NCBI GenBank assembly: GCA_023150835.1
Contig: JAKLKB010000116.1
Location: 1-36,109, forward strand
Reading direction: 5' to 3'
DNA length: 36,109 nucleotides
From: Myxococcota bacterium
GTDB taxonomy: Bacteria; Myxococcota_C; UBA6777
Part shown: one piece after another, positions 1 through 29,384 of the stretch
Numbering within the stretch: the first letter of the stretch is position 1
Layout: each line of letters starts with the position of its first letter
Notes under the pieces: generated by a model
Database searches by the model: none
Seen by the model: the letters and a program-made list of their open reading frames with translations, nothing else
What the model was told of the DNA's origin: nothing
Made by a program: the position numbers and the translations under genes

Positions 1-200
1 CGCCCTCCCCCGTGAACAGGGGAGGGAGCGAAAGTCGGAAGCAGCGGGGATTTTGTTTTTTCATGACGCACGCTGTTTGCACGAGACGCAGACGCTGCCC
101 GTTCCAACTTCCCCCCGTTCACGGGGGGATTGAGGGGGGGGAGAAAAAAAAGGCGATCAAGACCGACTCTACGAGGTTTCCACCTTAACAAGGCGCGTAT
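1..200 (+). mobile_element. R1 element, copy A (left end outside window)
   Basis: Right part of a dispersed element also found at 12431-12669 and 22402-22610. It is nearly identical to those copies over its whole length. It has a perfect hairpin with CCCTCCCC/GGGGAGGG arms near position 3 and a second hairpin of six C then six G near 112-129. It ends at 184-200 in the terminal repeat CTTAACAAGGCGCGTAT. The right end abuts a GGGG-loop-CCCC palindrome at 201-213, as in the other copies. It has no coding capacity that I trust. The left terminus is missing because the window starts inside it. Confidence 0.72.
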
Positions 201-318
201 GGGGTTTCACCCCACACCCCACAAGGGAGCGAAGCCCCCTTGACCCCGTGAGGGGCGAAGACAGCATAGGTTTTTCAAGCAAACGGCTCTGTCGCTTGAA
301 GTGTCGCGAACACGGCTT
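200..318 (-). repeat. R2 three-hairpin repeat, copy A
   Basis: Reverse-oriented copy of the R2 family (others at 5084, 12318 and 30941; fragment at 17818). Read on the minus strand it begins CCGTGTTCGCG, passes a CTTCAAGCG block, then folds into consecutive hairpins. The second has AAGGGGGC/GCTCCCTT arms around a TTC loop; the third has TGGGGT/ACCCCA arms around GAA. It lies directly downstream of the S9 peptidase gene in the same orientation, so it could end or protect that transcript. That role is inference. Confidence 0.7.
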
Positions 319-3081: not shown

Positions 3082-3468
3082 GTGACACGAAATCCGCAGG
3101 GTGTGTGATCGTCAAACGTAGGGGCAGCCCCCTGTGGCTGCCCAAAAACAGGGCCATTACACCGAAGCAGCCCCATGTGGCTGCCCAAAAACAGGGCCAT
3201 TACACCGGAGCAGCCCCCTGTGGCTGCCCAAAAACAGGGCCATTACACCGGAGCAGCCCCCTGTGGCTGCCCAAAAACAGGGCCATTACATCGGAGCAGC
3301 CCTCTGTGGCTGCCCAAAAACAGGGCCATTACACCGGAGCAGCCCCCTGTGGCTGCCCAAAAACAGGGCAATTACAGCGCAGCAGCCCCCTGTGGCTGCC
3401 CAAAAACAGGGCAATTACAGCGGAGCGCACCAACATCGCGATCACATACGACCCGAATATCGTACGAC
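3082..3468 (+). repeat. R3 terminal-inverted-repeat element, copy A (core expanded)
   Basis: R3 copies begin with a GATACGAnATCCG-type end and finish with a GGATATCGTATG-type end, which is an imperfect inverted repeat of the start. Here the left end is at 3082-3105 and the right end, GAATATCGTACGAC, is near 3455-3468. The usual single palindromic core (GGGCAGCC-CCCTGT-GGCTGCCC) has become seven 43-bp units. The element fills most of the 503-bp divergent space between the S9 peptidase and the rRNA methyltransferase, so promoters for both genes must lie in or beside it. Confidence 0.7.
3124..3424. repeat. Seven tandem 43-bp palindromic units
   Basis: Successive GCAGCC starts fall at 3124, 3167, 3210, 3253, 3296, 3339 and 3382, an exact 43-bp period. 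Each unit contains the GGGCAGCC/GGCTGCCC-type inverted repeat around CCCTGT, followed by AAAAACAGGG, which could pair with that loop. Differences between units are few, mainly CC to CA and ACC to AGC in the last two. There are no unique spacers, so this is not a CRISPR array. Because 43 is not a multiple of three and the unit lacks stops, long artefactual open frames cross it in several frames. Confidence 0.95.
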
Positions 3469-12317: not shown

Positions 12318-12431
12318 CGTGTTCGCAAAACTTCAAGCGGCTGTGCTGTTTGCTTGAAACACCATCGATCACCCCGCCAACACGGGGTCAAGGGGGCAAA
12401 GCTCCCTTGTGGGGCGTGGGGCGCTGCCCCA
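12318..12431 (+). repeat. R2 three-hairpin repeat, copy C
   Basis: Plus-oriented copy with the CCGTGTTCGC head and the hairpin series: second hairpin loop AAA, third hairpin GGGGC/GCCCC with loop GCT at 12418-12430. It is preceded by a short direct duplication of AAGCCGTGTTC. R1 copy B begins immediately after the third hairpin. Both flanking genes are on the minus strand, so this copy does not follow the 3'-end orientation seen at copies A and B. Confidence 0.75.
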
Positions 12432-12669
12432 TAGGCGTTAGGTTAAGCGCTTGTTGGCCCCCCCACCCCAGCCCTCCCCCGTGAACAGGGGAGGGAGCGA
12501 AAGTCGGAAGCAGCGGGGATGTTGTTTTTTCATGACGCACGCTGTATGCACGAGATGCAGACGCTGCCCGTTCCAACTTCCCCCCGTTGGCCGGGGGGAT
12601 TGAGGGGGGGAGAAAAAAAAGGCGATCAAGACCGACTCTACGAGGTTTCCACCTTAACAAGGCGCGTAT
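12431..12669 (+). mobile_element. R1 element, copy B (complete, 239 bp)
   Basis: Complete copy running from ATAGGCG at 12431 to CGCGTAT at 12669. The two ends are inverted repeats of the pattern ATAsGCG-N4-GTTAAG. Internal hairpins match copy A; the second has loop GTTGGC rather than GTTCAC between its C and G runs. It is flanked on both sides by palindromes with the same arms, GGGGC/GCCCC, but different loops (GCT left, AAA right). No open frame inside looks coding. Non-autonomous mobility is inferred from the termini and copy C. Confidence 0.78.
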
Positions 12670-12716
12670 GGGGCAAAGCCCCACGTATCCCAAACCGAAT
12701 TGTGTCCCTTCACGCT

Positions 12717-17873: not shown

Positions 17874-18071
17874 TTTCCGTACATTCCGTACATTCCGTAC
17901 ATTCCGTACATTCCGTACATTCCGTACATTCCGTACATTCCGTACATTCCGTACATTCCGTACATTCCGTACATTCCGTACTTTCCGTACTTTCCGTACT
18001 TTTCGTACTTTTCGTACATTCCGTACTTTTCGTACTTTTCGTACATTCCGTGCTTTCCGTACATTCCGTGG
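17874..18071. repeat. Tandem array of 22 nine-base units (ATTCCGTAC)
   Basis: Twenty-two consecutive units with an exact 9-bp period. Units 2-12 are identical ATTCCGTAC, and the later units vary at a few bases (TTTCCGTAC, TTTTCGTAC, ATTCCGTGC). The variants are ordered, with the homogeneous block at the left and degenerate units at the right, as expected from slippage spreading from one end. The period is divisible by three, so both strands stay open (Ile-Pro-Tyr or Met-Tyr-Gly repeats), but no start, ribosome site or flanking domain supports a protein. Downstream to 18187 I see only a possible decayed R3-like core at 18130-18170. Confidence 0.97.
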
Positions 18072-22352: not shown

Positions 22353-22703
22353 GTGATACGAGATCCGCCCATCGTATGCGCCAATATGTAGGGGCAGCCC
22401 CATAGGCGCCTTGTGAAGCGGAGGAAAGCCCCCCACCCCGCCCTCCCCCGTGAACAGGGGAGGGAGCGAAAGTCGGAAGCATCGGGGATTTTGTTTTTTC
22501 ATGACGCACGCTGTATGCACCAAATGCAGACGCTGCCCGTTCCAAGGGGGGAGAAAAAAAAGGCGATCAAGACCGACTCTACGAGGTTTCCACCTTAACA
22601 AGGCGCGTATGGGGGCAGCCCCCTGTGGCACGGCTGCCCAAAAACAGGGCGTCTACAGCGGATCGCGCCTACCCTTCGCGCACATCTCTCGGATATCGCG
22701 TGG
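22353..22703 (+). repeat. R3 element, copy D (interrupted by R1)
   Basis: The left end GTGATACGAGATCCGCCC (22353-22370) leads to GTAGGGGCAGCCCC. That sequence is then broken by R1 copy C and resumes at GGGGCAGCCCCCTGTGG (22612). The right end CTCGGATATCGCG is at 22688-22700. If R1 and one duplicated palindrome are removed, the core matches the uninterrupted R3 copies, apart from a CAC insertion in the hairpin. The remaining gap to the GST start (22704-22898) holds only a GCGGCGGACCGCCGC palindrome near 22770. Confidence 0.8.
22402..22610 (+). mobile_element. R1 element, copy C (complete, 209 bp, with target duplication)
   Basis: The termini ATAGGCGCCTTGTGAAG (22402-22418) and CTTAACAAGGCGCGTAT (22594-22610) are inverted repeats identical at 15 of 17 positions. 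The flanks are GGGGCAGCCCC on the left (22391-22401) and the same 11 bases on the right (22612-22622), with one extra G between. The element lacks about 30 bases that carry the second hairpin in copies A and B. Insertion inside R3 copy D with a flanking duplication is the best evidence that R1 moves. It encodes no transposase. Confidence 0.85.
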
Positions 22704-28095: not shown

Positions 28096-29384
28096 CGCGC
28101 ACCTCCTGCGGTGTTTTTCAACCACTCAGAAAAGCGGATATCCACAACCAACTCCGCACCAAAGGAAGGGAACTGCAAAAAGTACAACGTGTACAGGTTG
28201 GTTCGGATCGGCGGAGGGTTGGGATACCATTGACCGATCATGGCGAGACGCACCGAAACAGCGCGACCCAAAGAAAAGTCCACACCCGCTCGCCCCCGCA
28301 ACAGCAAGGTCTGTTCGAGGTTAAAGTTCAGATGCGCGTAGGCTTGGGCATGAACGCCCAGCCACGGCAACGGCGTCATATACCATTCTAGCCCAACGTG
28401 GCCATTGAGCGCAGGTGTGATCGCATTAAAACCGCTGAGATTGTCGCGATTCGTTGCCCCCAAAAGTGTCGCACTAATCGGCAACAACACCAGATGCAAG
28501 TGATTCATATCGTACTGATACGGCCTTGCATCCCGAAACCAAAATGGGATCCGTACCCCCATCCTCACACTTAATCCTGCATCCGAGACGTGCATCTCCG
28601 CACCGCTGCGCAAGATGCTCAGATCATAATAAAAATGGATCTGCGGATGCACATGCACCGCCACATCCACATCAAAGATGTTGTAGCCGTAGTTCACCGT
28701 GTCATAACGATCCGCTCGACCATTTTCTTCAAATGCCAAAAACAACGAAAACGGCCGCCATCGAAAACGCTTAATCGCATCATACGCCGTCAACCGCACC
28801 CCCAAAGAAAACGGCAGATTCAACGGCGAATACGCATCATGTACCGCTTGCAACAACTGCGCTCCGATCTGCAACTCCCACCGTGCAATCGCCCCCTTAC
28901 GCGGCCAAAGAAAATCCACAAACGCAATCGGCAAACGCTCACTATCCGGCATCTCTGGACGATCCGCCACAGGCGCAGGACCCATCGTTGCGGGCTTTCC
29001 TGCCGATAGCGGCTTTTCCGCCACAGGCGCAGGGCCCATCGTTGCGGGCTTTCCTGACGATAGCGGCTTTTCCGCCACAGAGGCAGGCTTCGCCGTTGTG
29101 GGCTTTCCTGCCGATAGCGGCTTTTCCGCCACAGAGGCAGGCTTCGCCGTTGTGGGATTTCCTGACGATAGCGGCTTTTCCGCCACAGAGGCAGGTCCAA
29201 CTGTCGCCTTTTTTCCTCCATTTATCGGCTTTTTCGCCAAAGATACGGGTTCCACCCCCGCTGTTTTTCCTGTGGACATCGTGGTTTTTGGCGGTTGAGC
29301 GTACACACAGACGCCCCCAAGCACCGATATCCACACACCCACCGCAAACACCCATAACCACCTAGCACCGCACAGACTACCCAT
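28092..29384 (-). CDS. Exported repeat-linker protein with C-terminal barrel-like domain
   Basis: 430-aa protein. The signal peptide ends near VCVYAQ (residue 30). Residues 52-141 are five 18-residue repeats (KPLSSGKPTT-x2-PASVAE type), rich in Lys, Pro, Ser and Ala and probably an extended spacer. Residues from about 165 to the end alternate aromatic and polar positions and finish with strands typical of an outer-membrane barrel. The spacer could cross the periplasm or bind peptidoglycan; this is inference. The ATG at 29384 has only a weak GAGAAAGA upstream and starts 18 bases after the phosphoesterase stop. Its TGA overlaps the next gene's ATG. No named family is recognised. Confidence 0.72.
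   Translation of the reverse strand: MGSLCGARWLWVFAVGVWISVLGGVCVYAQPPKTTMSTGKTAGVEPVSLAKKPINGGKKATVGPASVAEKPLSSGNPTTAKPASVAEKPLSAGKPTTAKPASVAEKPLSSGKPATMGPAPVAEKPLSAGKPATMGPAPVADRPEMPDSERLPIAFVDFLWPRKGAIARWELQIGAQLLQAVHDAYSPLNLPFSLGVRLTAYDAIKRFRWRPFSLFLAFEENGRADRYDTVNYGYNIFDVDVAVHVHPQIHFYYDLSILRSGAEMHVSDAGLSVRMGVRIPFWFRDARPYQYDMNHLHLVLLPISATLLGATNRDNLSGFNAITPALNGHVGLEWYMTPLPWLGVHAQAYAHLNFNLEQTLLLRGRAGVDFSLGRAVSVRLAMIGQWYPNPPPIRTNLYTLYFLQFPSFGAELVVDIRFSEWLKNTAGGAR
28962..29231 (-). repeat. Five 54-bp tandem coding repeats
   Basis: Five in-frame units of 54 bp encode the 18-residue spacer repeats. Units 2-3 (TTAKP type) and 4-5 (ATMGP type) form near-identical pairs, which suggests expansion by unequal exchange. 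Copy number probably varies between strains. Confidence 0.93.

Follow-up and report, generated by a model that had tools for sequence, protein, structure and literature searches.

R1, a repeat found throughout a Myxococcota genome of 7.56 Mb (239 contigs), is with a probability of about 0.9 a MITE, a gene-less derivative of an IS186/IS421-type element of the IS4 family that would have transposed into GGGG-N5-CCCC hairpins. It combines (i) the features of a MITE, being short (under about 600 bp), devoid of a transposase gene, bounded by terminal inverted repeats, flanked by a target duplication and present in many copies with presence/absence at syntenic loci, and (ii) those of IS186/IS421-type elements, namely CAT-initial 18-bp ends, an 11-bp duplication and a preference for GGGG-N-CCCC. 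Elements that have R1 ends and enclose a transposase occur in the same genome as relics with pieces only.

Ends, targets and copy number of R1

The window analysed here, a stretch of 36,109 nucleotides, is the entire contig C56 of the source genome and contains three R1 copies (Table 1). Only the right end of copy A is visible, because the contig starts inside this copy. The right end is identical across copies A, B and C; the same termini that an earlier note had ascribed to all three therefore hold for this end, while the left end of copy B differs and that of copy A is cut off. In copy B, the left end CATAGGCGTTAGGTTAAG agrees with the right end of the same copy at 13 of 18 positions. The 17-bp ends of copy C, ATAGGCGCCTTGTGAAG and ATACGCGCCTTGTTAAG (reverse complement), match as inverted repeats at 15 of 17 positions, as first reported, and the reported 11-bp sequence was recovered on both sides. 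The left side of this copy lacks one C of the run, and the left end is the odd one out among the copies listed. Copy C lies at 22401/22402–22611, and the element proper begins with C, as is seen in copies with G5/C4 targets. Copy C splits an R3 unit: excision in silico of the element together with one 11-mer yields ...ATGTAGGGGCAGCCCCCTGTGGC..., which resembles the R3 units located near 3112 and 23584 and agrees with the restoration of an R3-like core described before.

Table 1 R1 copies and flanking target sequences in the window
Feature	Position	Strand	Description
R1 copy A	1–201	+	left part lost at contig end; right end as in other copies
Right flanking palindrome of copy A	202–212		GGGTTTCACCC
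Left flanking palindrome of copy B	12419–12429		GGGCGCTGCCC
R1 copy B	12430–12670	+	241 bp; shares its right end with copy C; left end CATAGGCGTTAGGTTAAG
Right flanking palindrome of copy B	12671–12681		GGGCAAAGCCC, unlike the left one
Duplicated 11-bp target of copy C, left	22391–22401		GGGGCAGCCCC; shares C22401 with the element
R1 copy C	22401–22611	+	211 bp, gene-less; ends CATAGGCGCCTTGTGAAG (left) and CATACGCGCCTTGTTAAG (right, as reverse complement)
Duplicated target of copy C, right	22612–22622		GGGGCAGCCCC; runs on into the remainder of the interrupted R3 unit

We set the element frame, CATA...TATG, by copies whose targets are asymmetric, with five G but four C (e.g., L008). In this frame, the ends of R1 comprise 18 bp, CATA[C/G]GCG...AAG, and the duplicated target comprises 11 bp, GGGN5CCC. 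Left and right ends match at 12–15 of 17–18 positions, and in typical copies at 12–13 of 18 only. A pattern search for GGGN5CCC adjoining an R1 end, with one mismatch allowed, returned 280 matches in the source genome and 49 in the genus-mate (G001, Myxococcota MAG KLAP109, the nearest relative among the genomes compared); three genomes from other genera of the family had no match, and neither did the reversed pattern used as control. The 280 ends correspond to at least about 140 elements, and to more if contig breaks or decay conceal an end. Searching the genome with copy B gave at least 41 matches, the best 40 of 266 candidates being scored. R1 measures 160–280 bp, roughly 240 bp, and 36 complete copies are mostly 179–277 bp long; the copies read hold neither a transposase nor a passenger gene, and the R1 interior has no resemblance to the transposase gene found in relics.

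Copy statistics were taken from the listed places and from an 812-kb sample. Identical 11-bp GGGN5CCC sequences stand on both flanks in 20 of the 25 complete copies obtained from the listed matches of GGGN5CCC plus end, compared with a mean of 2.1 and a maximum of 9 in 100,000 trials in which flanks were randomly re-paired. Together with the 280 ends, this bears out the initial description of a small mobile element with terminal inverted repeats and target duplication, and it contradicts the case, considered in the earlier note, that no other copies are flanked by duplicated palindromes. In 91 of 100 listed sites (tally count), the outer bases of the pentamer, N1 and N5, complement each other, so that a typical site has a stem of five pairs and a loop of three bases. 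The 812-kb sample contains 83 GGGGN5CCCC sites, compared with 22 after one dinucleotide shuffle; an R1 end adjoins 44 GGGN5CCC sites of the sample. Many R1 copies are hosted by the hairpins of the intergenic repeat families R2 and R3, of which the sample contains ~52 and ~66 like units, respectively (loose patterns, both strands).

This nesting bears on the idea that recombination or gene conversion between the palindromic repeats R2 and R3, and not transposition, is the main means by which R1 spreads. Such a route would be in line with the frequent position of R1 inside other repeats, with the high similarity of its copies and with the unequal flanks of 5 of the 25 complete copies (strict set), copy B among them. 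Each of the 20 remaining copies, however, is flanked by matching loop pentamers, which recombination between different repeats is not expected to yield. Furthermore, genuine insertion sequences have ends that match those of R1, the relics contain transposase pieces, and the flanks of one copy (L005) are unlike R2 or R3, which suggests insertion into an unrelated single-copy GGGG-N-CCCC site. We consider recombination as the main route highly improbable. Unequal or damaged flanking palindromes were seen at L018 (G000:C235:6214-6452), L010 (C201:76242-76486), the window copy at 12430-12670 and others; they could stem from assembly joins or from copies recombining with one another.

R1 contains many internal hairpins and is surrounded by palindromic repeats, as might be expected of a repeat of the REP/BIME kind on which a Y1 (RAYT) enzyme acts, or of a structural RNA or terminator maintained by selection. 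Y1 enzymes are not known to leave a target duplication, whereas R1 has 11-bp duplications; Rfam contains no family matching R1, and a possible later use in gene regulation would not account for its spread. We give these origins next to no credence and retain transposition of a MITE. Tandem repeats of other kinds were observed in the window as well: about twenty 9-base units TTCCGTACA that decay toward one side (17875-18069), 43-base units from the R3 hairpin core with seven copies in register (3116-3447), and 54-base units within a long open frame (28963-29281), probably of a repeat protein.

Relation to IS186/IS421 and transposase relics

The earlier note did not name a family. R1 belongs with IS186/IS421 of the IS4 family, judged by its ends, its target and the transposase relics. 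We compared R1 with IS421/IS186 copies at 17 distinct sites in enterobacterial plasmids and viral contigs. These elements are 1338–1339 bp long and end in sequences like CATAAGCGCTAACTTAAGGG, with a 10–11 bp duplication at 14 of the 17 sites and a GGG-CCC palindrome at 11; one copy (L230) has exactly GGGGCAACCCC twice, and an unequal-flank case occurs here too (L269). GGGG(N6/N7)CCCC is given as the preferred target of IS186, with saiSree et al. 2001 among the sources cited (PMC6925257). R1 likewise has a duplication of the 10–11 bp class and GGG-N-CCC palindromic targets. The IS186/IS421 ends CATAAGCGCTAACTTAAG agree with the R1 variant/relic end CATACGCGCTAGGTTAAG at 15 of 18 positions and with typical R1 ends at 13 of 18; between R1 variants and IS elements, 13–16 of 18 end positions are common in most pairs, the lowest value being 12. 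IS186/IS421 encodes its own transposase and occurs in few copies (median of 3 places in E. coli genomes having any), whereas R1 is gene-less, far shorter and present in its many copies.

Further elements resemble R1 in part. A 1.42-kb IS4-family element on the Acinetobacter towneri plasmid p4SAAt401 (L227:2340-3758) has perfect ends CATACGCGCCAACTTAAG that agree with the R1 right end at 15 of 18 positions, an 11-bp duplication ACCTAAACACC and a transposase that aligns with the R1 relic; unlike R1, it is autonomous, and its single copy lies outside any GGG-CCC palindrome. The target of IS231A is GGG(N)5CCC. The IS231 subgroup is characterised by CAT ends, 10–12 bp duplications and the end consensus CAT-------AA--TAA (PMC2266710, a review of IS4). 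IS231 and MIC231 of the Bacillus cereus group are like R1 by description, in IS4 family membership, CAT ends and duplication length. The R1 right end fits CAT and, at positions 15–17, TAA, but R1 ends have TT or AG at positions 11–12 and not AA; assignment to the IS231 subgroup proper was rejected on this ground. Classification as a MIC was rejected as well, since MICs hold a passenger gene and the R1 copies read hold none. In the alphaproteobacterium Rhodoplanes tepidamans, a gene-less stretch of 178 bp (L144:2428-2605) has the ends CACAGGCGCCAAGTTAGG and CATAGGCGCCAGGTTCAG and GGGGCGGCCCC-like flanking palindromes; it differs from R1 in being a single copy by end pattern, in its interior and in its distant host, and its likeness may be a chance match, although both ends and flanks fit.

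Pieces of a transposase gene were found at four places in the source genome. The C235 relic (about 14.72–15.08 kb) has R1-type ends and holds the first 66 residues of the protein, MKHTPKERTSS..., as well as a stretch resembling a ribosome-binding site; in C214, R1 ends enclose a later piece of the same gene; in C126, one R1 end accompanies the first 53 residues; and in C174, a piece up to FDGSVVNRLGEKGSTWRMH is present with no R1 ends. Searched singly, the relic pieces gave no firm match. A joined reading, which spans two copies and was used for searching only, matched the NCBIfam profile transpos_IS4_1 with E=8.2e-6 (residues 18–151 on profile positions 7–165). The relics cover the N-terminal half of this profile, and the C-terminal part bearing YREK is missing from every relic. 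A tblastn search of plasmids with the joined reading gave three weak matches, in transposase genes or gene pieces, and all three carry R1-like ends, which constitutes independent support because the ends were absent from the query. One match is the Acinetobacter towneri element described above, with CATACGCGCCAACTTAAG at either end; the ends of the Methylocystis plasmid match are CATAGGCGCTAGGATAAG and CATAAGCGCTAGGATAAG, and the Komagataeibacter plasmid match has CATAGGCGCTAACTTTAG at one end. The Komagataeibacter transposase aligns with the relic reading at a pairwise E=3e-14 and is about 40–43% identical to IS421/IS186. IS elements with ends close to those of R1, for which the earlier note had proposed to look, were found in other hosts, namely IS186/IS421 and plasmid IS4-family elements.

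A transposase of another family could in principle move R1, with short ends and a GC palindrome that resemble those of IS186/IS421 through convergence. The end likeness is based on 18 bp, and an intact transposase of the relic type was found in none of the five genomes of the phylum examined. Against this stand the two R1-ended elements that hold pieces of the same IS4-type gene, the plasmid elements that were reached via the relic protein and nevertheless have R1-like ends, and the agreement in 11-bp duplication and target. We regard convergence as exceedingly improbable and keep the derivation from an IS186/IS421-type element. An intact partner may be present in the source genome and unassembled, because the assembly is 93% complete and broken at repeats; whether lost or unassembled, this partner presumably resembled the relics. 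The previous statement that the window contains no transposase for R1 agrees with our searches, in which relic and plasmid transposases had no match there. The relic peptide had no match in viral contigs either, and the Komagataeibacter transposase matched IS421-type copies in them.

Several resident candidates for the partner were rejected. The DDE_Tnp_1 genes of the genome (IS982-like, IS1182-like and another IS4 element) have no R1-like ends, and L047 (C28), a candidate with another interior, proved to be a truncated R1. A different IS4-family transposase, above the cut-off of transpos_IS4_2 and with an intact ORF, was observed at L061:1288-2355 (G000:C103); the candidate inverted repeats there, CTCGCTACATGACAG, differ from those of R1.

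According to the mechanism that we propose, the transposase of a full-length relative would bind the 18-bp ends of R1, excise the element and insert it into a GGGG-N5-CCCC hairpin by cut-and-paste. Staggered cuts 11 bp apart, followed by repair, would duplicate GGGN5CCC on both sides, and the R2 and R3 hairpins would provide many of the landing sites. The cut-and-paste chemistry and the action in trans are inferred for R1 by analogy with the IS4 family.

Presence and absence in the genus-mate

The genus-mate lacks copy B at the syntenic locus (C244), where both sides are 92–97% identical; GGGGCGTGGCGTCACACCCCACATATCCC stands there in place of the palindromes and R1 of the source genome and is not a clean palindrome. 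The site of copy C is also occupied in the genus-mate, by an R1-ended element with a longer interior of the 567-bp type. Two genus-mate contig ends lie at this site, one reading GTAGGGGCAGCCCC then CATAGGCGC and the other GTATGGGGGCAGCCCCCTGTGG; copy C either predates the divergence of the two genomes or marks a hotspot that was used twice. The earlier note had raised the prospect that relatives carry R1 at identical places throughout, which does not apply to copy B. At a third locus (C57:9932), the genus-mate has no R1, yet its intergenic sequence there is too altered for a clean empty site, and at C57:5396 contigs end in the comparison.

Two genus-mate elements of 567–568 bp (L099:1028-1595 and L100:1218-1784) have R1 ends, equal GGGCGCTGCCC flanks and a different, palindrome-rich interior, which lies in opposite orientation relative to one end in the two elements. 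The interior between the same R1 ends thus differs in the genus-mate; no gene was found inside these elements, which were rejected as candidate partners.

Across 36 elements, nearest-neighbour identity reaches 100% over aligned bases and median pairwise identity is 91.5%, and some R1 copies at separate loci are identical across all aligned bases. Judged from these identities, the spread of R1 looks recent, with gene conversion as a caveat.

Implications for the genome and the IS family

The term "undescribed" in the earlier note is fair for the particular element as far as the literature was searched, in which nothing relevant on MITEs of IS186 was found; the kind of element is well known. New, as far as checked, are the host, the copy number, the nesting in hairpin repeats and the partner relics, and what is remarkable about R1 is mainly its copy number and its nesting in other hairpin repeats. 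A more layered ecology, in which R1 at its copy number of at least about 140 is specialised on R2/R3 hairpins as safe pads and may still move via a transposase outside the assembly or of external origin (e.g., on a plasmid), possibly one that reads the extruded hairpin rather than the sequence, is conceivable and in our estimate rather unlikely.

The repeat structure of this genome is explained in part by R1, which is probably also behind many of the contig breaks. For annotators, the R2/R3 palindromes are landing pads and not part of R1. Insertions into intergenic hairpin repeats are probably cheap, and the GGGG-CCCC preference known from E. coli can direct a mini-element into such repeats. 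R1 adds an uncultured Myxococcota lineage to the range of IS186/IS421-type transposition, there in a non-autonomous form with many copies.
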